Assembly (NCBI RefSeq): GCF_000765475.1
Contig: NZ_JRHO01000014.1
Coordinates: forward strand, 93,574 to 157,573
From: Methanococcoides methylutens
Lineage (GTDB): Archaea; Halobacteriota; Methanosarcinia; Methanosarcinales; Methanosarcinaceae
DNA length: 64,000 nt
Reading direction: 5' to 3'
In this document: piece by piece, positions 4,551 to 64,000 of the stretch
Position numbering within the stretch: the first letter of the stretch is position 1
Layout: every line of letters begins with the position of its first letter
Made by a program: the position numbers and the translations under genes
Notes under the pieces: model-generated
Told to the model about the DNA's origin: nothing
The model's input: only the letters and a program-made list of their open reading frames with translations
The model's database searches: none

Positions 4551-5738
4551 TTAATGCCTTCTGGAAAATAGAAGTATCAATATCGACATGCACAGAATTA
4601 AGGCTGCGTTCTGATCAAGATCTTTATTCTCTACAGGAGTATCATCAGCCCCTGTTATTTCAGGAATATCATCTGTTGACCGGAAAGCCACAATTGCAAA
4701 AGGCGAAAAAGCAGAAGTTTCTGCTTCAAAGATCACATCGCTGGTACTTTCATCGATCTTCTTTGTTGAAAGGGGTACCCACAGGTCCTGTTCATAACGA
4801 TACATAATTACAGAACTATCAGAGATCTGTTCCTCTTCAAGCCAGGATCGGTCTACCCTAAATCCGATAACTGCATCCTTTATATTACTCTCATTACTAT
4901 AACCGGGTTTACCCAACCAGATATTCACATCTTTGTAGACAATACCAGGAGGAGGTGATGAAACGAAACGAGAGGTCTGTTTAAGGACTTCAATCGTTGC
5001 TACAACATTGCCGGCATTTGTGAGAGATTCATAATTGATGTACATGATGGGATTTTCAGGCTTATCGAACTGATAGGTAACCTGAGAGCCAAGATACACA
5101 GCCAGGCTAGTTCTCTCCATTATCTCAACTTCCTGATAGGATCCGCTTGTGGTGGTAATTATGGCAGATTCCGAATCATCCTTGTCACTGGCCTTAGATC
5201 TGGTAGATGAAGCAGTATCAGCTCCGATAGAAACTGATCCATCAACAACATCTATAGGTATGATCTGCCCTTGAGTATCACTAACTACAACATTAGAGAG
5301 CTCCAGAGAACTTGTGCCTGATATATTGCCAGCGACCATCTGGATCATAGCAAAATATCCCGGTTCTGTAACGCTTGTCTTGTCAAGTATCAGACCATAT
5401 ACAGAATTAATGTCCCCATTTGAACTTTCGACCTCACCGGGATTGAACCAGACAATAGCACCTTCCTGCCTTAAGAATTCACCTTCTGAGATCTGGACAG
5501 CCTTTACAAGTTCACTGTCATAAGACAAGTCGAACTGGACACCAGCAACCGGACTATCAGGATCCAGATATACACCCACTGAAAAGTTCTGTCCTGCATC
5601 TACTGATTGAGAAATAGGCATTATGCTGACGTTTGTACTGGCACTGGCAATCCCACTAAGGCAGGTAATAGTAAACAAAGAAAAAAATAGTAAAGAATAA
5701 AATTTACTTTTTCCAGAGATGAAAATATACTTTTCCAT
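4551..5738 (-). CDS. Membrane-anchored cohesin-domain surface protein with PGF-pre-PGF domain
   Basis: 395 residues, secreted. A signal peptide (about residues 12-33) is followed by a cohesin-like domain (about 36-175) with the family's alternating beta pattern, including VAGVQFDLSYD. A serine/aspartate-rich linker comes next, then a domain of the PGF-pre-PGF type common in methanogen surface proteins (about 205-355). The protein ends in a single hydrophobic helix with RRH at the extreme C-terminus, so it stays anchored in the membrane facing outward. It lies 19 bases downstream of a second cohesin gene that also carries dockerin repeats, with an AAGGTG ribosome site. Cohesins bind dockerins in bacterial cellulosomes; here a surface receptor role is inferred. 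Confidence 0.85.
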   Translation of the reverse strand: MEKYIFISGKSKFYSLLFFSLFTITCLSGIASASTNVSIMPISQSVDAGQNFSVGVYLDPDSPVAGVQFDLSYDSELVKAVQISEGEFLRQEGAIVWFNPGEVESSNGDINSVYGLILDKTSVTEPGYFAMIQMVAGNISGTSSLELSNVVVSDTQGQIIPIDVVDGSVSIGADTASSTRSKASDKDDSESAIITTTSGSYQEVEIMERTSLAVYLGSQVTYQFDKPENPIMYINYESLTNAGNVVATIEVLKQTSRFVSSPPPGIVYKDVNIWLGKPGYSNESNIKDAVIGFRVDRSWLEEEQISDSSVIMYRYEQDLWVPLSTKKIDESTSDVIFEAETSAFSPFAIVAFRSTDDIPEITGADDTPVENKDLDQNAALILCMSILILLFSRRH

Positions 5739-5757
5739 CGGTACACCTTACCATTAA

Positions 5758-6414
5758 TCATTCCATATGTGACAATACCAACATCATATCAAGGACATTT
5801 ACAATATTGTCCTGATTTACATCCCATAGGGGATAAGGATATGAGGTGGTTTCATCGAAATGTTCTTCAACCAGATCATAATCGTCAAAGTTAACCACAT
5901 TATCCTGGTTTACATCAAAAATCAAGACTGATATTACTGTATTTGTTAATTCGAGATCCAGAGAATTGCCTTCCGGATCACTTATTATAACATCTTTCAG
6001 GACTAATTCTGACCTTCCATTTGCCTGCTCAGTTGCGGTTAACGTGATGGTAGCAAAAGTTGCTGGTGTTGCTACATCTGAAGCACCGAGAATGCAACCA
6101 TACGCATCATTTATAGAACCTGAATTTACAGAACCTGAAACAAAAAATGTATCCATACCACTTTGTTTGAACAGGCTTCCTTCACTCACATCTGATATTT
6201 GGAACTGAGAATTATCAAAAAGCAGATCGAACTGGATCCCTGCAATATCAACATCAGGAGAAACAAAGACATCGACTGTGAAAGTTTCCCCCGGCGCAAT
6301 GGCCTGTGATGATGGATTTAAAGTTACATCTGAGGCAGCTGCAGAAATGTTAGTTAGACCTACTAGCAATGTGACTATAGTTGCTACTATCAAGATCTTT
6401 TTTATGTTAGACAT
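5758..6414 (-). CDS. Secreted cohesin-dockerin protein
   Basis: 218 residues. A signal peptide (1-28) is followed by a cohesin domain (about 29-165) clearly related to that of the next gene (shared AGIQFDL versus AGVQFDL, and SEGxxxxQ). The C-terminus is a dockerin module with two calcium-loop repeats, DVNQDNVVNFDDYD and DVNQDNIVNVLDMM, separated by about 17 residues. There is no membrane anchor, so the protein should be released or held through its dockerin. AAAGGA precedes the ATG. The pair could form an anchored receptor (next gene) plus an adaptor carrying both binding halves. Archaeal cohesins and dockerins are known, but their ligands are mostly not. Confidence 0.88.
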   Translation of the reverse strand: MSNIKKILIVATIVTLLVGLTNISAAASDVTLNPSSQAIAPGETFTVDVFVSPDVDIAGIQFDLLFDNSQFQISDVSEGSLFKQSGMDTFFVSGSVNSGSINDAYGCILGASDVATPATFATITLTATEQANGRSELVLKDVIISDPEGNSLDLELTNTVISVLIFDVNQDNVVNFDDYDLVEEHFDETTSYPYPLWDVNQDNIVNVLDMMLVLSHME

Positions 6415-6983
6415 GTTTTTTCCTTTATTTTGAAATGTATTTGATGAGTTATACTGGCTTGATTCTAATCACCAAAATTCAAAATCCCCATATTTCAAAA
6501 GGTGTTGGTACTATAAAAACATTATGAAAAAAACAAATATGTCATTACACTCATCATTATGAGACTTTTATAAGAGCCATATATAATAACAACGCATAAA
6601 ATAAGTAGATAGCATAAAAGGATGCATTTGGAAAACCAGAATCTTTCCATACTACCCTGATACCAAAATATTTGAGACATAACAGGTCCGGAATTCACCA
6701 TTAAACATTTGTTGAATTCATATACCTAGAATTCTGAACCAACCCTCATTAAAATACTTATATCCCCAAAAACTAATATATTGCAACTCAACTATATTGG
6801 AGAAGTAAGTAAAAAATGATATGACACATACAGCATATTTAAGCAGAACAGTATTAAGTAGAACAGCATTAAGTAGAAATTAATAGATCTCCACTGAACT
6901 AACTTGCATATAATAGATTATTTACAAACCTGATCATTGTCTGCTATGATCGTTGCTATTATCATAAACTGAAAGGTTATTTC
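6415..6983. other. AT-rich divergent intergenic region
   Basis: 569 bases between the leftward cohesin operon and the rightward ACP cluster. I find no convincing gene. Several TATA-like stretches (around 6583-6592 and 6763-6775) could serve the two divergent promoters, but none can be assigned firmly. A short tandem repeat at 6842-6882 is listed separately. Base composition is clearly more AT-rich than the housekeeping genes further right. Confidence 0.6.
6842..6882. repeat. 15-base tandem repeat upstream of the PPTase gene
   Basis: Two and a half direct copies with a 15-base period: AGCAGAACAGTATTA, AGTAGAACAGCATTA, then AGTAGAAATTA. The array ends about 100 bases before the PPTase start, where a regulator could bind repeated half-sites on one face of the helix. 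Function not known. Confidence 0.55.
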
Positions 6984-7667
6984 ATGGTTATTAAAACATT
7001 AGAATCGTTAACTCATCCCTTTTCTTTATCGATCTATAAATTATGGAATAAGAACGATACCCTTATTTTTTTAGTTGATCTGGAAATGGATGATCAATTA
7101 GAGTTATCAGATCTAAGCAGCGATGAAAAAGAATATCTGAACACACTTAAAACAAATTATTTTCGAAAAAGGTTCATAGCATCTCGATCGTCCCTGAAAT
7201 TTATTCTTTAGCATATCCTTAAAAAAAGATCATTATTAGATATCTCCCTCTATAGAAATGATACCGGGCGTGTGTGCGTACACAAACATGATGATATTTA
7301 TATCTGTATCTCATACACCGACAGCCTGGTTGCTATTTCAATATCAAAAATGAAAACAGGAATTGATATTGAATACATAAGACCGATACACTTAAAAAAT
7401 GATCCGAAACTTTTGCAGAATACAGAATCTAAAAGAGATATGTTTCAAAAAGACAATGTTGATACACTGAAAAATTGGACATTGAGAGAAGCATATTGTA
7501 AACTGACAGATCAGAGTATGCTAGCATGTTTGAATAAAGAAATTGACTTCAATGGTATCGATCATCAAGAAATTGTCATAAATAACAGATATGTATTATC
7601 TGTTGCTTTTGCTTCAAAAAATAACAAGATCAATATATGCCATCTCCAAAAAAGTATCACCAGTTAA
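6984..7667 (+). CDS. Sfp-type 4'-phosphopantetheinyl transferase with one in-frame UAG (possible pyrrolysine)
   Basis: Transfers phosphopantetheine from CoA to a serine of a carrier protein. One reading frame of 227 codons is open except for TAG at 7209-7211 (codon 76). On both sides the protein follows the Sfp fold order: RKRFIASRSSLKFIL before the UAG, TGR plus an IYICISYTD strand after it, then GIDIE (residues 126-130; Mg-binding D128 and E130) and WTLREAYCK (165-173; catalytic E169 and K173). There is no frameshift. In Methanosarcinaceae UAG can be read as pyrrolysine, so this may be a full-length enzyme; otherwise it is an amber-disrupted gene. A GAAAGG ribosome site precedes the ATG. 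The carrier-protein substrate is probably the ACP gene that follows. Confidence 0.8.
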
Positions 7668-7884
7668 ATGACGAAACTACTCCGAAAGTATATAATTTTT
7701 TTAGATACGGAATGGATAATTTTGATATATAGCTGCCTAATTAAATAGTAGAGATAAATCATTAGCAAATCGAAGAAATTGTTTGCCATAAGAACATCTT
7801 ATATACGATTGAAGTTATTTTGTTTATGGGGAAGTAGTTCAAACAGCTATGAAGCATAGAGTATTCCTTATACATATACTACAT

Positions 7885-7896
7885 GGCTTTGTTGAA
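7885..7896. repeat. Insertion-sequence end remnant
   Basis: GGCTTTGTTGAA resembles the terminal inverted repeat of insertion sequences in methanosarcinas, and is close to GGCTTTGTAGAAA at 39232 and 47295. No transposase is attached, so this is a solitary remnant or a chance match in the short gap between the PPTase and ACP genes. Confidence 0.35.
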
Positions 7897-7953
7897 TTAA
7901 TGATGCATTATTATGCTCTTTAAATAATGAATATGTTGAATGGGTTGACAAAC

Positions 7954-8199
7954 ATGGATGAAATTAAAGAAGATATAATGACATATTTGCAAAATAAATC
8001 TTTTATGGACAGTAGTACACAATTAAATGATGATGATTCTTTAACGATGAAAGGAATTATCGATTCAATTGGATTGATCGAATTTATAGATTTTATTTCT
8101 GATAAGTATTCCATAGAGATTCCTGAAGACCTATTAACTCCGGATAATTTTGATTCAATCAACGGAATTGTAAAACTTGTCCAAAAATTGACAAAGTGA
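7954..8199 (+). CDS. Acyl/peptidyl carrier protein
   Basis: Small carrier protein of 81 residues (90 if the ATG at 7927 is used). It shows the four-helix carrier fold and the attachment motif GIIDSIGLIEF, whose serine (residue 38 from this start) receives the phosphopantetheine arm. The acidic N-terminal MDEIKEDI looks like the natural first helix, which is why I prefer 7954; neither start has a strong ribosome site. It lies four bases before the AMP-forming ligase gene and downstream of the PPTase gene. Most archaea lack ACP-dependent fatty acid synthesis, so a dedicated carrier protein with its own transferase points to a specialised pathway. Confidence 0.85.
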   Translation: MDEIKEDIMTYLQNKSFMDSSTQLNDDDSLTMKGIIDSIGLIEFIDFISDKYSIEIPEDLLTPDNFDSINGIVKLVQKLTK

Positions 8200-8203
8200 T
8201 GCT

Positions 8204-9682
8204 ATGAGAATTGATGAATATATTGCAAAACATGCTAAAGAAGCTCCTCAAAAAACTGCACTGGAAGAGAAGGACAGATCAATTTCTTATAGTCTTCTTG
8301 ATGAAGCTATAAATACTATAACAGCAGAAATTGATGATTTTGATCATTGCAAATTTGCGATCTTTGCAGAATCAGGTATAGAATATATTCAGGCCCTAAT
8401 GGCAGTTTACCGATCGAATAACATCGCTGTACCCCTCCCGGTGGAACTGACAGAATCTAATATTAGAGAGATACTTAATGCTAACCAGATCAATAATATT
8501 ATTGTCACCGAACAGCAATATTCGAGATTTGAAGGCAACTTCTTTGAAGATTTTACTACTGTGATCCACATTTCAAAGGATTCCTCTGTGAATACTTTGC
8601 GTAAAAATGCAATTAGTGAAAGCAATAATGATCAACTACGACTTGTAATGTACACATCCGGCACTACAGGAGCTCCAAAAGGGGTCATGCTAAGTGATGA
8701 AAATCTAATAGCAAATGCAAATTCCATAATAGAAGTACTTAGCATAACACCAAAGGACAAAGCTGCACAAGTAATATCTCCACACCATGCTTTTGGAAAC
8801 TCAATAATAAATTCCCAGTTGGTTGCAGGTGGTTCTATTAAGATAGGTGGCCTTACTTTTCTCGAATCGACCTTTAAACTTGTAGAATCGGGAGTAACTA
8901 TATTTTATGGGGTTCCAAGTACCTACCGCATTCTTCTAAAATATCCTTCTAGCTTCCAGAGATCATTCAGGAACGTCCGACTTGCTGCATCTGCAGGCGG
9001 TGCTATGGAAGTCGAAATTATAGATCAGATCAAGCAGTTGAATGACAGGATCGAGATAATTCCAATGTATGGACAGACGGAAGCAACAGCAAGACTTTCT
9101 TACCTCCCATCAAAAGACCTGGAAAAATATCCTGATGCAATAGGCAGACCTATCCCAGGGGTTGAACTTGATGTGGTTGATGATAATAAAATGCCAGTTG
9201 AACCCGGCGTTACAGGAGAATTGATCGCCAGGGGAAAGAACATACTGATAGGTTATCTTAATGATGAAGAAGCTACCCGTAAAAAAGTGATCGACGGCTG
9301 GATGTACACCGGCGACCTGGCAAAAAAGTTGCCAAATGGTTACTTTAAATTATTGGGTCGTAAGGATGACCTGATCAAAGTTGCTGATCATCGTATAAAT
9401 CCAAGAGAGGTTGAAAAATATATTGGGAAAAATAATGAAGTTTCAGACGTATTCATCGTCCCGGTCGATCACGAATACCTTGGAAATGCAATCAGTCTAA
9501 TGGTAATCCCAACTCAGGATACAGAAGTTGAAGCATTATATTCTTTTTGCAGAAAAAACCTGCCTGGTTTCCTGTGTCCACTGGAAATAATTCTTATCGA
9601 GAACTTGCCACTGAGTAAAAGTGGAAAAATATCTAACAGGTCTATAATAGAGGAGTATCAAAATGTCAAAGCTAACATGTAA
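8204..9682 (+). CDS. AMP-forming acyl-CoA/acyl-ACP ligase (ANL superfamily)
   Basis: Adenylates a carboxylic acid and passes it to a thiol, here probably the phosphopantetheine arm of the adjacent ACP. The 492 residues contain the ANL motifs: YTSGTTGAPKG (from residue 150), YGQTEA (near 290), the hinge TGD followed by LGRKDD (near 375-390), and the C-terminal catalytic lysine in SGKIS (near 475). The substrate pocket is not readable, so the acid is unknown. The start ATG is four bases after the ACP stop, preceded by a TGATG ribosome site. The last 20 bases overlap the next gene, giving a compact ACP-ligase-amidotransferase block. Confidence 0.9.
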   Translation: MRIDEYIAKHAKEAPQKTALEEKDRSISYSLLDEAINTITAEIDDFDHCKFAIFAESGIEYIQALMAVYRSNNIAVPLPVELTESNIREILNANQINNIIVTEQQYSRFEGNFFEDFTTVIHISKDSSVNTLRKNAISESNNDQLRLVMYTSGTTGAPKGVMLSDENLIANANSIIEVLSITPKDKAAQVISPHHAFGNSIINSQLVAGGSIKIGGLTFLESTFKLVESGVTIFYGVPSTYRILLKYPSSFQRSFRNVRLAASAGGAMEVEIIDQIKQLNDRIEIIPMYGQTEATARLSYLPSKDLEKYPDAIGRPIPGVELDVVDDNKMPVEPGVTGELIARGKNILIGYLNDEEATRKKVIDGWMYTGDLAKKLPNGYFKLLGRKDDLIKVADHRINPREVEKYIGKNNEVSDVFIVPVDHEYLGNAISLMVIPTQDTEVEALYSFCRKNLPGFLCPLEIILIENLPLSKSGKISNRSIIEEYQNVKANM

Positions 9683-10676
9683 GAAATGTATTTTAGATTC
9701 AGACATTCCTGGTATAACAATAAACGAGGAAAGTGGCCTTTGCCAGTTCTGTGAGAGCTATAAACCCATGTCTCCTGATGAAAAGAAGGAATATTTGGAG
9801 ATCATAGGAAAAATGCTTGAAGAAAAGAGTGGAAAAGGAGAATATGATGTTATTTTTGCACTTTCCGGTGGAAAAGACTCCTCATATGGACTCTATAAGC
9901 TGAAAAAGGAGTACCCATTCCTTAACATCCTTGCAATTCAGTTTGATAATGCCTTCATTTCAGAAGCTGCTGTCGCTAATGCAAAAAAGATGTGTGAGAT
10001 CGTTGGCTGCGATTTTTTTAAGCTGACAATGAAAGAAGAAGCACTTTGCGATACTTTTCGAAAAGCAGCCGGATCTACCAATGCATATTCAAAATTTGCC
10101 AGATATCGAGCCAGTGATATCTGCAACACATGCATAAGTATCATCAAACAGAAGCTGATAGAACAGGCAATTATTCATAAAGCACCATTCATTGTTTTTG
10201 CTTTCACATCAGGCCAGGCCCCTAATCCCATAATTGACCTTAAGCCCAGTTTCATAAAGTGGTCCCGGGATCTTTTTGAGAAGCAGCTCCAAAATATAGG
10301 TGTAGAGGACAAGGATGAGAGTTTCCTTCTAAAAAGTGAGATTATAAAAAGCATAGATAAAGACGCCACTCCGGTTATTTTGCACCCAATGTGCCTGTGG
10401 GATTATAATGAAGATAAGATAGTGGAGAAGCTAATTGATCTCGGATGGATGCCTCCAAAGATCAATGACAGTAATTCAACGAACTGCCTTTTAAATGCAT
10501 TTGCCTGTCAGAATCATATCAATAAATATGACATCCATCCATACGCTTTCGACATAGCAGGCCTTGTGAGAAGCGGGGATATGACCCGGGAAGAAGGATT
10601 GGAGAAATTACATAAAGAATTGTCAGAGCCATTGATAGAAATGGCTGCAAAGAAACTTGAAATGGACCCGGAATAA
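9663..10676 (+). CDS. PP-loop amidotransferase, N-acetyl-sugar amidotransferase (PseA/WbpG) type
   Basis: 337-residue ATP pyrophosphatase. An N-terminal zinc ribbon (CKKC at residues 6-9, CQFC at 27-30) precedes the PP-loop LSGGKDSS (67-74). The zinc ribbon plus later cysteine motifs (ICNTC, NCLLNAFAC) match the group that amidates sugars in pseudaminic/legionaminic acid and O-antigen pathways (PseA, WbpG). Such enzymes adenylate a carbonyl oxygen and replace it with nitrogen supplied by a glutaminase or ammonia. No glutaminase partner is visible here. GGAG stands eight bases before the ATG, inside the end of the ligase gene. The link to an ACP system is unusual; the substrate is unknown. Confidence 0.8.
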   Translation: MSKLTCKKCILDSDIPGITINEESGLCQFCESYKPMSPDEKKEYLEIIGKMLEEKSGKGEYDVIFALSGGKDSSYGLYKLKKEYPFLNILAIQFDNAFISEAAVANAKKMCEIVGCDFFKLTMKEEALCDTFRKAAGSTNAYSKFARYRASDICNTCISIIKQKLIEQAIIHKAPFIVFAFTSGQAPNPIIDLKPSFIKWSRDLFEKQLQNIGVEDKDESFLLKSEIIKSIDKDATPVILHPMCLWDYNEDKIVEKLIDLGWMPPKINDSNSTNCLLNAFACQNHINKYDIHPYAFDIAGLVRSGDMTREEGLEKLHKELSEPLIEMAAKKLEMDPE

Positions 10677-10756
10677 ACTTCCATACAAATGGGGACGTAT
10701 CAATATTCTAAACCAGACACCATCATATCGTGCAAATTATTCCAGTGGGGGACATT

Positions 10757-11725
10757 ATGAAAATAATTGATGAACTAAACAAAGATGCAGAAAAGAACGC
10801 ATCTCAGATCAGGACATTCATTGAAGATAGAGTAAAGGACTTTAAGAAAAAGGGGATTGTTGTAGGAGTTTCGGGTGGAATTGATTCTGCGGTTATACTT
10901 GCGCTGGCAGTTCAGGCTGTAGGTAAGGAGAATGTTTACGGATTAATACTTCCTGAAGAGGAATCAGCTGCATCCAGCAAAGAACTTGGAGCAAGACTTT
11001 GTGAATCAATGGATGTTTCATATGAAGAAGTCCCGATCACTCCAATATTGCAAGCACTTGACACATACGGTAAAAAGGATCAGATAATAAAGAGAACCTG
11101 TCCGGAATATGATCCGAATATCCATAAGACCTCATTGGTCCTGCCCAGTCTCTTAGAGAATGATATGTTGACCATTCCATCCATAAGGCTGGTAAAAGAT
11201 GATGAAGTGGTTGCAAAGAACAGATTGAAAGCAAAGGACTATCTAGAACTGATCGGCATCCAGAATGTAAAACAAAGATCAAGAATGATGATCCAGTATC
11301 TATATGCAGAGAAGAATAATTATCTTGTGTGTGGTACCACTAATAAGACCGAATATCTTCTGGGTCAGTTCGTGAAATATGGGGATGGTGGAGTGGATAT
11401 CGAACCTCTGTCAGACTGTTACAAGACCCAGGTCTATGCATTGGCAAATTTCCTTGGCATAGACAAGGAAATAATAGAAAGGCCACCAAGCGCTGATACG
11501 TGGAGTAGCTTCACGTCTGATGAAGACTTCTTCTGGCGTATGCCGATACATGTTATGGACCAGCTGCTATATTCACAGGAACATGACCTGCCCATGGAAA
11601 TAATTGAAAAGAATACAGAACTGTCAGAAGAAAAAATAAACAAAGTAAAAAGAGGTATTGACAAAATAAAGAGTGCTTCCAAATACATCACATCAGCGCC
11701 TCCTATTTGTTATCTTGACAAGTGA
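10757..11725 (+). CDS. NAD(+)-synthase-like PP-loop amidotransferase, divergent
   Basis: NadE-family enzyme of 322 residues that would adenylate a carboxylate and amidate it. The PP-loop VGVSGGIDSA lies at residues 36-45. GTTNKTE and KYGDGGVDIEPLSD, both typical of NAD synthase, follow, then PPSADTW. The region between roughly residues 100 and 165 is longer than usual. The ATG at 10757 follows a GTGGGGG stretch and is preferred over an in-frame GTG at 10730. It is the second PP-loop enzyme in a row in this cluster. It may be the cell's NAD synthase, but placement between a sugar-amidotransferase-like gene and a FabG-like gene suggests pathway-specific amide formation (inference). Confidence 0.8.
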   Translation: MKIIDELNKDAEKNASQIRTFIEDRVKDFKKKGIVVGVSGGIDSAVILALAVQAVGKENVYGLILPEEESAASSKELGARLCESMDVSYEEVPITPILQALDTYGKKDQIIKRTCPEYDPNIHKTSLVLPSLLENDMLTIPSIRLVKDDEVVAKNRLKAKDYLELIGIQNVKQRSRMMIQYLYAEKNNYLVCGTTNKTEYLLGQFVKYGDGGVDIEPLSDCYKTQVYALANFLGIDKEIIERPPSADTWSSFTSDEDFFWRMPIHVMDQLLYSQEHDLPMEIIEKNTELSEEKINKVKRGIDKIKSASKYITSAPPICYLDK

Positions 11726-11819
11726 TCCTGAATCAAGCTAAAAATATCAAAGCTAAAGATATCAGATCATTATGATTCAAACTTGAAATATTCAAAGAAA
11801 GATAGGAAGAAAGGAAAAC

Positions 11820-12560
11820 ATGCTCACAGATAAAGTCGTACTGATCACAGGTGCCAGTCGCGGAATTGGTAGAGCTACGGCTTTACTGGCAGCAGAGAAC
11901 CATGCACATGTCATTATTAACTACAAAGAAAGTGAAGATAAAGCAGCTGAACTTGTAGAAAATATTACTGAGAAAGGACTTCAAGCTACCATGATAAAAG
12001 CAGATGTTTCTGTTGAGAATGAAGTCAAAGAAATGTTTGAGTTTATTAAAGAACGATATTCCAAACTTGATATCCTTGTAAACAATGCCGGGATATTGAA
12101 AAGTAATCTGTTGGCGATGACAAGTACTGAGTTATTCGATCAGACTATAGATGTTAATTTAAAAGGAACCTTCCTATGTAGTCGGTACGCATCAAACATG
12201 ATGAGAAGAAAAAGATCAGGAAAGATAATTAATCTCTCATCGGTGATAGGCTTAAATGGAAATGCAGGCCAAACAGTATATTCGGCAAGCAAAGCAGGAG
12301 TAATCGGATTTACAAAGTCTGCAGCAAAGGAACTTGGCAGATATGGAATTACTGTTAATGCTATTGCACCGGGTTTCATTGAAACTGATCTGACCAGAGA
12401 TGTTAAAGAAGAAGTTCGCGAAAAATTGATAGCAAACATAGCTCTTGGTCGAAGTGGTAACCCAGAAGATGTTGCAAAAGTGGTTCTGTTTTTAAGCTCA
12501 GATCTTGGGAATTACATCAGTGGCCAGGTAATATCTGTTGATGGATGTCAGACGATCTGA
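11820..12560 (+). CDS. fabG: 3-oxoacyl-ACP reductase-like short-chain dehydrogenase (FabG family)
   Basis: NAD(P)H-dependent reductase of 246 residues, the usual FabG length. It has the Rossmann glycine motif TGASRGIG (10-17), NNAG (near 90), the catalytic serine in NLSSVIG, YSASKAG with the catalytic tyrosine and lysine, and a C-terminal SGQVISVDG typical of 3-oxoacyl-ACP reductases. GAAAGGAA precedes the ATG. As the last gene of the ACP cluster it probably reduces a 3-oxo group on an acyl-ACP, although many SDRs of this shape act on other alcohols. No ketosynthase, dehydratase or enoyl reductase is nearby, so this is not a complete fatty acid synthase. Confidence 0.85.
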   Translation: MLTDKVVLITGASRGIGRATALLAAENHAHVIINYKESEDKAAELVENITEKGLQATMIKADVSVENEVKEMFEFIKERYSKLDILVNNAGILKSNLLAMTSTELFDQTIDVNLKGTFLCSRYASNMMRRKRSGKIINLSSVIGLNGNAGQTVYSASKAGVIGFTKSAAKELGRYGITVNAIAPGFIETDLTRDVKEEVREKLIANIALGRSGNPEDVAKVVLFLSSDLGNYISGQVISVDGCQTI

Positions 12561-29134: not shown

Positions 29135-29389
29135 ATGCTCGATAGCTGGATATTTTTCCCGATAAATGCAATAATGTTCCTGATGTTTGCAGGACTTGCA
29201 ATAGCAAGTACATTATTCTGGATCTGGATGCTTATCGACTGTGCAATGAACGAACCATCACAGGGAAATGATAAGCTTATATGGGCAATTATAATAGTCT
29301 TTACGCAGTTATTGGGAGCAGTGATCTATTTCTTCTTCAGAAGACCAAAACGGATCGCACAGGAAATATCAAAGAGTTCAGAAAATTAA
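29135..29389 (+). CDS. Small membrane protein with PLDc_N-like domain
   Basis: 84 residues with two transmembrane helices (about 8-33 and 46-68) joined by a short loop containing DCAMNE. The pattern matches the phospholipase-D nuclease N-terminal (PLDc_N) family, small membrane domains often found alone near sensors and transporters. C-terminal FRRPKR is cytoplasmic by the positive-inside rule. 23 bases before the next gene; same operon. Confidence 0.75.
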   Translation: MLDSWIFFPINAIMFLMFAGLAIASTLFWIWMLIDCAMNEPSQGNDKLIWAIIIVFTQLLGAVIYFFFRRPKRIAQEISKSSEN

Positions 29390-29412
29390 TAAGTATATAG
29401 GAGGGGGAACAT

Positions 29413-30198
29413 ATGGTAGAAAGAAGCATGAAAAGTATGATACGGGATTTTTTTGGAGTGGTCACACGTAAACAGACCTATCTGAACCTCATCTACCTGT
29501 TGTTCTCTTTCCCGCTTGGAACAGCATATTTCATATTCCTTGTGACAGGACTTTCAATGGGCCTGAGCCTGTCTATCACCCTTATCGGCATCCCAATACT
29601 CCTGTTGATGCTCGTAGCATGGTGGGAGCTGGCATCTTTTGAGAGGCAACTTGCCATCTGGCTTCTGGGAATTGATATCCCGCCAATGGAATCCCGGAAG
29701 TTCACAAACCAGAAGATGACAGAGAAGCTGAAAGGGTATATCATGAACCCAGTCACATGGAAAGGACTGGTTTTCCTGTTCATCAAGTTCCCACTGGGAA
29801 TATTCACGCTAATAGTTTCATTTACATTAATAGTATTCACAATAGCCCTGATTGCAGTACCTCTTATCTACAAGACCGATTACGTGAACTTCGGAGCTTA
29901 CCAGGTGGATTCGCTCGGGGTGGCTATTACAATAATGTTTGGAGGACTGCTATTAGGAATTGTCTCACTACATATCATGAACGCTCTTGCAAAGCTTTCC
30001 GGAATACTGGCATATCACCTGCTTGGGAGTACAGGCTCCGCAAGCATAGATGAGAATGACTATACATACATCAATGATGTTGACATCGAAGACGATGCCG
30101 AAGAGGAAAGTCCAGACACAACAACTGAAGCAACCCCAGAATCAGCAGAAATCGAAGATGTGGATGATGTTGGGGCTGAAAATAATCCAAAGGATTAA
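29413..30198 (+). CDS. Putative sensor-domain membrane protein
   Basis: 261 residues. Four to five hydrophobic helices in two pairs, interrupted by a cytoplasmic segment (KGYIMNPVTWKG) repeated in character in both halves. This corresponds to the putative sensor domain family (PF13796-like) usually fused to or encoded beside two-component kinases. The C-terminal 45 residues are acidic and low-complexity (D, E, T, P). A strong GGAGGGGG ribosome site precedes the ATG. It probably senses envelope stress for the kinase/regulator pair downstream. Confidence 0.75.
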   Translation: MVERSMKSMIRDFFGVVTRKQTYLNLIYLLFSFPLGTAYFIFLVTGLSMGLSLSITLIGIPILLLMLVAWWELASFERQLAIWLLGIDIPPMESRKFTNQKMTEKLKGYIMNPVTWKGLVFLFIKFPLGIFTLIVSFTLIVFTIALIAVPLIYKTDYVNFGAYQVDSLGVAITIMFGGLLLGIVSLHIMNALAKLSGILAYHLLGSTGSASIDENDYTYINDVDIEDDAEEESPDTTTEATPESAEIEDVDDVGAENNPKD

Positions 30199-60091: not shown

Positions 60092-61105
60092 TCAGAGAAT
60101 GATCTCGATGTCCAATTCTTCTGCGAGCTCTTTGTACCTGTTACGGATAGTGACCTCGGTCACACCTGCAACATCAGCGACCTCACGCTGGGTCCTGCGC
60201 TCACCGCAGAGAATGGATGCAATATAGATCGCAGCTGCTGCCACACCGGTTGGTCCACGGCCACTGGTGAGTTCCTTTTCAGATGCCTGACGAAGGATCT
60301 CGACTCCTCTGGACTGTACCTCACCCTTGAGGTTCAGGCCTGAGCAGAACCTTGGGACATAGTCTATTGGTGAAGTTGGCATAAGCTTGAGTGCAAGCTC
60401 ACGAGAAATGAAACGGTATGTCCTTCCGATCTCTTTCCTGCTTACCCTTGAAACTTCTCCGATCTCATCCAGGGTACGTGGAACACTGCACTGGCGACAT
60501 GCTGCATAGAGTGCTGCTGCTGCCACACCTTCAATACTCCTTCCACGGATGAGGTTCTTGTCAACTGCCTTCCTGTAGACCACCGCAGCAGTCTCACGTA
60601 CAGTACGTGGAAGACCTAATGCGGATGCCATACGGTCAAGTTCTGACAAAGCGAACGCAAGGTTCCTTTCGGTAGCATTGCTTACGCGTATCCTACGCTG
60701 CCATTTTCTCAACCTGTATAACTGAGCACGGTTCTTGGAGGAAATTGACTTCCCGTAGGAATCACGGTTCCTCCAGTCGATCATAGTAGAAAGACCTTTA
60801 TCGTGTATGGTGTACGTCATTGGTGCACCCACACGAGAACGCTTCATACGCTGGTCATGGTCAAAGGCACGCCATTCCGGACCTTCGTCAACGAATTCAG
60901 CATCCACTACGAGACCACAATCTGCACATACCAGTTCGGCACGTTCATAGTCCTGCTCAAGGTTTCGGCTTCCACATTCCGGACACTCGATAACCTTGTT
61001 CTCGACTTCAGCGGTCTTTTCTTTCTCTTTACGTGCCTTAATCATTGCACGTATCTTTTCTCTCTCTGAAGTATCAGAATATCTTACTCTTTCAACTTCC
61101 ACCAT
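60092..61105 (-). CDS. tfb: Transcription initiation factor TFB
   Basis: Archaeal TFIIB, bridging TBP-bound promoter and RNA polymerase. 337 residues. Zinc ribbon CPECGSRN...CADCG (about 40-62), B-reader/linker with [10 protein letters not shown] and SRVGAP, then two cyclin repeats (about 135-235 and 240-330) with [17 protein letters not shown] and [16 protein letters not shown] recognition helix ending [10 protein letters not shown] contacts the BRE. Neighbour gar1 upstream is the usual archaeal arrangement. Confidence 0.96.
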
Positions 61106-61195
61106 ATTATCATTGCCTCGATTTTCCCAAAATTGCTAATTGTCGATCCACTTAAAATAAATGTACAAATGTACTAATAAATGTAATAAATGGAC

Positions 61196-62024: not shown

Positions 62025-64000
62025 GTGGCAGATAATAAATTTGTGTACCTTTTCGGAAACGACGAAACTGAAGGCAAAAATAGTATGAAAGACCTGCTTG
62101 GGGGCAAAGGAGCCAACCTCGCAGAAATGTCAAATCTGGGAATACCAGTTCCGGTTGGGTTTACGATCACGACCGAGGTCTGTACTCTTTATCTTAAGGA
62201 CAAACATTATCCTTCAGGTCTTGAAGAGCAGATCAATAATGCCATAAAGGAGCTGGAAAACACTACAGGGAAGAGATTTGGAGATCTTAACAATCCATTA
62301 CTTGTTTCTGTACGCTCAGGTGCCCGCGTGTCCATGCCTGGAATGATGGACACTGTACTAAACCTGGGACTTAACGATAGTTCAGTAATAGGCCTTGCCA
62401 ATAAGACCGGCAATGACAGGTTTGCTTACGACAGCTACAGAAGATTCCTCACAATGTTCGCAGACGTCGTGCTTGGCATCGAACACGAGAAGTTCGAGTC
62501 GGCACTCACTGCTAAAAAGAAGGATAAAGGCGTCAAACAGGATACAGACCTTGATGTAGATGACCTAAAGGAACTTGTTGAAAACTTCAAGGGAATTATA
62601 AAGGAAGAGACCGGAAATGACTTCCCCCAGGAAGCAAGACAACAGCTCCAGATGGCCATTGATGCAGTGTTCGGTTCATGGAACAACCAGCGTGCAATCA
62701 CATACAGGCGCCTGAATGGCATCCCCGGACAATGGGGAACTGCAGTGAACGTACAGAGCATGGTCTATGGTAACATGGGAGAAAGCTCCGGAACAGGAGT
62801 AGCATTCACAAGAGACCCTGCAACAGGTGAAAAGAGATTCTTCGGAGAATACCTCATCAATGCACAGGGAGAAGATGTCGTTGCCGGTATCAGGACACCT
62901 CAACCGATCAAAACCCTGAAGAACAACATGCCCGAGGTCTACGACCAGCTTGTGGACATCTACATGAAACTGGAGGATCACTTCAAAGACATGCAGGATA
63001 TCGAGTTCACCATTGAGAAAGGCAAGCTTTTCATGCTGCAGACAAGGACCGGAAAGAGAACTGCAGCTGCAGCCATCAAGATCGCGACCGATATGGTCGA
63101 AGAAGGACTTATCGACAAGGAAACAGCCCTTACAAGGGTAGAACCTGCACAGGTTGACAGGCTCCTACACCCAAATATTGATCCTGACGCAACACCGGAT
63201 GTAATTGCTAACGGTCTCCCTGCATCCCCGGGAGCTGCTGTGGGTGAAGTAGTTTTCACAGCAGAACATGCCGAAGAAAGAGCAAAAAAGGGCGAAAAGA
63301 CCATCCTTGTGCGTGCTGAGACCTCACCCGAGGACATCGGTGGCATGAATGCTGCAGAAGGTATCCTTACAGTACGCGGAGGAATGACCTCACATGCAGC
63401 AGTCGTTGCAAGAGGTATGGGTAAGCCATGTGTTGCAGGCTGTGGCGAAATTGTAATTGATATGAAAGAGAAGGTTTTCCACATTGGAGAACATTCCATC
63501 AACGAAGGAGACATGATCTCCATTGACGGATCCACAGGAGACGTCATTCTCGGAGAGGTTGACCTTATCCTGCCAGGCGTTACAGGCGAACTTGAACAGA
63601 TACTCTCATGGGCTGATGAGGTCCGAACCCTCAAGGTCAGGACAAACGCAGACACTCCACACGATGCACAGGTCGCACGCGACTTTGGTGCAGAAGGTAT
63701 TGGACTCTGCAGAACAGAGCACATGTTCTTCGGAGAGGACAGGATTCCTGCTGTACGTGAAATGATCATGGCAGAAGAGATCGATGTAAGAAAAGCAGCA
63801 TTAAAGAAACTTCTCCCAATGCAGAGAGAGGACTTTATCGGAATATTCAGGGCAATGGAAGGATTCCCTGTGACCATCAGGCTGCTTGACCCACCACTCC
63901 ACGAATTCCTGCCAAACCATGAGGAAGCAATTGAAAAGCTGGCAGAACTGAATGCTAATGATGCCACACAAACCGAACTTGACAGGGTCAAGAAGATTAT
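62025..64000 (+). CDS. ppdK: Pyruvate, phosphate dikinase (5' part, runs off window)
   Basis: Interconverts pyruvate and phosphoenolpyruvate with ATP and phosphate. The GTG start at 62025 follows GGGAGG by eight bases. 658 codons are open to the window edge. N-terminal ATP-grasp domain ([28 protein letters not shown]), central swivelling domain with phospho-histidine H457 in [13 protein letters not shown], then the start of the PEP/pyruvate barrel ([15 protein letters not shown]). About 220 C-terminal residues are beyond the window. Gluconeogenic role in methanogens. Confidence 0.95.

Follow-up and report, generated by a model that had tools for sequence, protein, structure and literature searches.

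Does a gene interrupted by a single in-frame TAG still encode a working enzyme, and if it does, what is inserted at the UAG? The question is raised by a gene for a 4'-phosphopantetheinyl transferase (PPTase) in Methanococcoides methylutens, which lies in a stretch of 64,000 nucleotides that was analysed as a whole (hereafter the window). Our reading, to which we give a probability of roughly 0.88, is that the gene encodes a working Sfp-type PPTase in which UAG 76 is translated as pyrrolysine (Pyl) by PylRS-charged tRNA-Pyl(CUA). The features discussed are collected in Table 1.

The reading frame and the identity of the enzyme

Translation gives 75 codons, the TAG, 151 codons and a terminal TAA, with no further stop and no indel. 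This agrees with an earlier note, made from the sequence alone, which had described a single UAG in one uninterrupted frame and a product of 227 residues on readthrough. The note had also placed PPTase motifs on both sides of the TAG: GIDIE and WTLREAYCK downstream are as described, while the upstream motif actually reads KRFIASR. The possible ribosome-binding site six bases 5' of the ATG is identical or nearly so in six native orthologues. The layout of the interrupted gene appears to be more than chance, since the frame is open for 151 codons past the TAG and the same layout is repeated in two other species.

Table 1. Features of the PPTase locus and other genes with an in-frame TAG. Positions are those of the window unless preceded by a locus identifier.
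Feature	Position	Strand	Remarks
Sfp-type PPTase gene	6984..7667	+	227 aa with UAG as sense; ends TAA
In-frame TAG, PPTase codon 76	7209..7211	+	From alignment of relatives
PPTase codons 77-96, from TAG to next possible start (GTG)	7212..7271	+	Protein-level conservation in TAG species
C-terminal ORF, 131 aa from GTG under standard code	7272..7667	+	Bears GIDIE and WTLREAYCK
AAAGGT, possible ribosome-binding site	6972..6977	+	Putative function, from sequence
Acyl carrier protein (ACP), probable PPTase substrate	7927..8199	+	Start may be ATG at 7954
AMP-binding acyl ligase	8204..9682	+	
PP-loop protein, WbuX-like	9663..10676	+	Under family cut-off
NadE-like (NAD synthase family) protein	10730..11725	+	
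FabG-like short-chain reductase	11820..12560	+	
UvrD helicase with nuclease domain	L052:2163-5219	+	TAG codon 306 (CAA in G020)
Histidine kinase	L052:12636-14588	-	Two TAGs, codons 163 and 347 (CAG in G020)
CcmF-like protein	L059:18124-19119	-	TAG codon 181
4Fe-4S protein	L060:12665-13480	-	TAG codon 93

The readthrough product matches the Pfam family PF01648 (ACPS) with 28.6 bits against a cut-off of 25, and the family profile picks out Sfp (1QR0 and 4MRT) among solved chains. The predicted model (mean pLDDT 78.6) aligns with Sfp (4mrt) over 230 columns with an E value of 2.7e-10 and a TM score of 0.59, covering both half-domains at a sequence identity of only about 15%. The motif residues G126, D128, E130, W165, E169, A170 and K173 are invariant in 29 relatives. 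In the model, residue 76 lies in the helix 58-78, close to its C-terminal end. The enzyme thus has the two-half fold and the GIDIE and W..REAY motifs in common with the Sfp-type PPTases 1QR0 and 4MRT, but differs from them in the in-frame UAG at residue 76.

Codon 76 in relatives and selection downstream

A PPTase homologue was found in 51 of the 112 genomes searched from the family. Codon 76 is TAG in three Methanococcoides species (the window genome, G000; G020; and Methanococcoides vulcani SLH 33, G025) and CAG (Gln) in the three next relatives (G024, G018 and G019); in more distant relatives the codon specifies Cys, Tyr, Arg or Ser. A sequencing error is very unlikely, as the TAG is common to three separate genomes, and was dismissed. 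The synonymous distance among the three TAG species is 0.22-0.27. The PPTase tree and a tree of six right-flank genes both cluster these species, so a single origin of the TAG suffices; most likely, to judge from the sequences, it arose by one CAG-to-TAG (C-to-T) transition in their ancestor. The left-flank genes and the cohesin genes yield different trees, which points to exchange among species; two adjacent cohesin-like genes (window 4551-6414) are fast-evolving and have a species tree that differs from that of the flanking genes. A different, more distant PPTase in G022 (L014) and G016 (L028) has TAG at codon 210 in place of the TCG (Ser) of its relatives. The 20 or so codons that remain are mostly conserved; a second, independent gain of UAG in the same enzyme is possible there, as is an early terminator.

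Purifying selection on the PPTase is the same after the TAG as upstream of it. In TAG-TAG pairs dN/dS is 0.21-0.30 after the TAG and 0.12-0.36 over codons 16-75; the post-TAG part of the CAG-CAG pair G018-G019, taken for comparison, gives 0.30. There are no extra stops or indels in this part in the TAG species. When the observed number of substitutions was placed neutrally on the post-TAG part in simulation, the probability of obtaining no stop was 0.07, that of as few amino-acid changes 0.001 and that of both 0.0003.

These data bear on the alternative that the earlier note had offered, a recent nonsense mutation that has left the PPTase dead or dying in this lineage. The operon does seem to be dispensable in the genus: one genome (G017) is without PPTase and ACP, and in another (G023) the native PPTase survives only as a remnant. 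That remnant is full of stops, however, as a genuinely dead copy would be, whereas the downstream half of the TAG-bearing orthologues is intact rather than decaying. The same TAG is kept in three species across the synonymous distance given above, and a nonsense mutation would leave the genome without a PPTase beside a conserved ACP operon. Conserved TAG and downstream purifying selection together make this alternative very improbable.

In G023 (L079, about 9021-9152, and L078, about 10094-10702) the remnant lies beside the ACP gene, and a distant PPTase is encoded elsewhere in that genome; the native enzyme has apparently been replaced by the distant one, and G021 looks similar.

We consider it still less probable that the gene makes two proteins, with a stop at the UAG and a restart downstream, for example from the GTG at 7272, so that the C-terminal half is made as an AcpS-like protein. 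The 131-residue ORF does contain the ACPS domain, and the model agrees in part with single-domain AcpS structures. Codons 77-96 would then be untranslated, but they are kept as protein, with five amino-acid changes in 13 substitutions and no stop (P about 0.04). The CAG relatives make one continuous chain, and Sfp-type enzymes use both half-domains.

UAG decoding in this genome

That UAG 76 is read as pyrrolysine presupposes the machinery, and the genome encodes it: tRNA-Pyl (pylT, anticodon CUA), PylS, PylB, PylC and PylD are all present, each protein scoring above its curated cut-off, so the cassette, whose genes the earlier note had named as a check, is complete. PylS is found in 11 of the 11 genomes of the genus. 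Two mtbB genes with the expected in-frame TAG served as positive controls. A full-length MtmB homologue without a TAG was also seen (G000:C5:118412-119761); it possibly resembles the non-pyrrolysine homologue reported for M. methylutens Q3c (PMC13044021). The least probable of the alternatives, readthrough with another residue by near-cognate suppression (e.g. Gln), has in its favour that the ancestral codon was CAG and against it the dedicated tRNA and synthetase and the TAGs in the two mtbB genes, which belong to a Pyl-dependent family.

We then have to consider how UAG is used elsewhere. A comparison of 460 kb of this genome with 400 kb of G020, in which TAG was treated as sense, gave 264 conserved frames, of which 36 contain a TAG. 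Many of these 36 look artefactual, since they are short, run antisense or extend a gene upstream, but in five genes (the PPTase, the UvrD helicase, the histidine kinase, the CcmF-like protein and the 4Fe-4S protein) selection is seen on both sides of the TAG. TAG looks like the true end of only one or two conserved frames in the scan. For the window, the earlier note's statement that none of the other intact genes ends in TAG holds in essence; six of the 40 conserved ORFs of 100 residues or more, the PPTase among them, contain a TAG when it is taken as sense. In the ORFs at 29281-30198 and 60092-61168 the TAG is upstream of the likely true start, the frame at 7920-8282 runs antisense to the ACP gene, and a clear coding signal is missing from two small frames near 61.8-63.3 kb. 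By sequence comparison, then, UAG is often a sense codon and rarely a terminator in this genome, with residual ambiguity.

Candidates for Pyl-containing proteins were also rejected. The window frame at 62676-63269, with TAG at codon 35, matches nothing in Pfam and lacks a coding signal, and in the ACP of G016 and G022 the TAG lies in the ribosome-binding region, ahead of the probable start codon.

The pylB frame (L072:7329-8591, minus strand) contains a TAG about 20 codons ahead of a TGA; either the TAG is the real end or PylB carries a tail that includes Pyl. In M. burtonii and others, pylB is reported to terminate at TAG (PMC2933860). UAG is thus still ambiguous in these archaea, and some termination at codon 76 of the PPTase is likely.

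In the general model of UAG decoding, reviewed in PMC9499178, Pyl-tRNA is set against the release factor. No PYLIS-like stem-loop stands out after the PPTase TAG (z of +0.91 and +0.92 in the window and -1.85 in G020, with differing folds), and this element is reportedly not required for Pyl insertion (PMC9499178). UAG 76 would accordingly be decoded by Pyl-tRNA in competition with the release factor and without a special RNA element, and we infer that residue 76 is pyrrolysine. The TAG was most likely tolerated because UAG seldom terminates in the lineage and because this position, towards the C-terminal end of a helix, accepts many residues. As Gln works here in relatives and C, Y, R, S and Q all occur at the position, Pyl is probably a neutral replacement for Gln: tolerated, not required and not catalytic. 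The pattern fits the drift discussed in PMC3639795, and the three TAG species with their CAG sister species make drift versus function directly testable.

The operon and comparison with known systems

The PPTase gene stands first in a conserved operon and is followed by genes for the ACP, the AMP-binding ligase, the WbuX-like and NadE-like proteins and, in several genomes, FabG (window 6984-12560). This gene order is kept between genera of the Methanosarcinaceae, and the PPTase and ACP genes co-occur, both being absent from G017. We infer that the PPTase loads the neighbouring ACP; our literature search found no published description of this PPTase-ACP operon in methanogens. As this is the sole PPTase detected in the genome, it is reasonable to hold, with the earlier note, that activation of the ACP depends on the supply of Pyl. 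It is unlikely, though, that active PPTase, and hence ACP loading, tracks that supply as it falls from a high level on methylamines to a low one on methanol; if true, this would be a regulatory link from substrate use to the ACP pathway and its product.

With this gene, which codes for the one PPTase detected in the genome, the likely Pyl proteins outside methylamine metabolism grow in number, and the selection data show that UAG acts as sense in several genes of Methanococcoides. A standard-code annotation is expected to call such a PPTase a fragment or a pseudogene.

An in-frame UAG read as Pyl is a known phenomenon, of which the PPTase is most likely one more case. The tRNA-His guanylyltransferase Thg1 of Methanosarcina acetivorans contains pyrrolysine (Heinemann et al., 2009, as related in PMC2933860). 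On that account it is like the PPTase in having a single in-frame UAG, a role outside methylamine metabolism and a neutral-evolution explanation, and unlike it in enzyme and genus; for the PPTase the TAG is found in three species and downstream selection has been measured, while Pyl itself is predicted. In MtmB, MtbB and MttB the in-frame UAG is decoded by the same pyl cassette, but there Pyl is catalytic and conserved, whereas the PPTase position varies, with Gln sufficing in close relatives. Finally, a genome-wide code in archaea in which UAG is pyrrolysine has reportedly been described by Kivenson and co-workers in Science in 2025; the likeness to the present genome is that UAG is sense in many ordinary genes and rarely a terminator.
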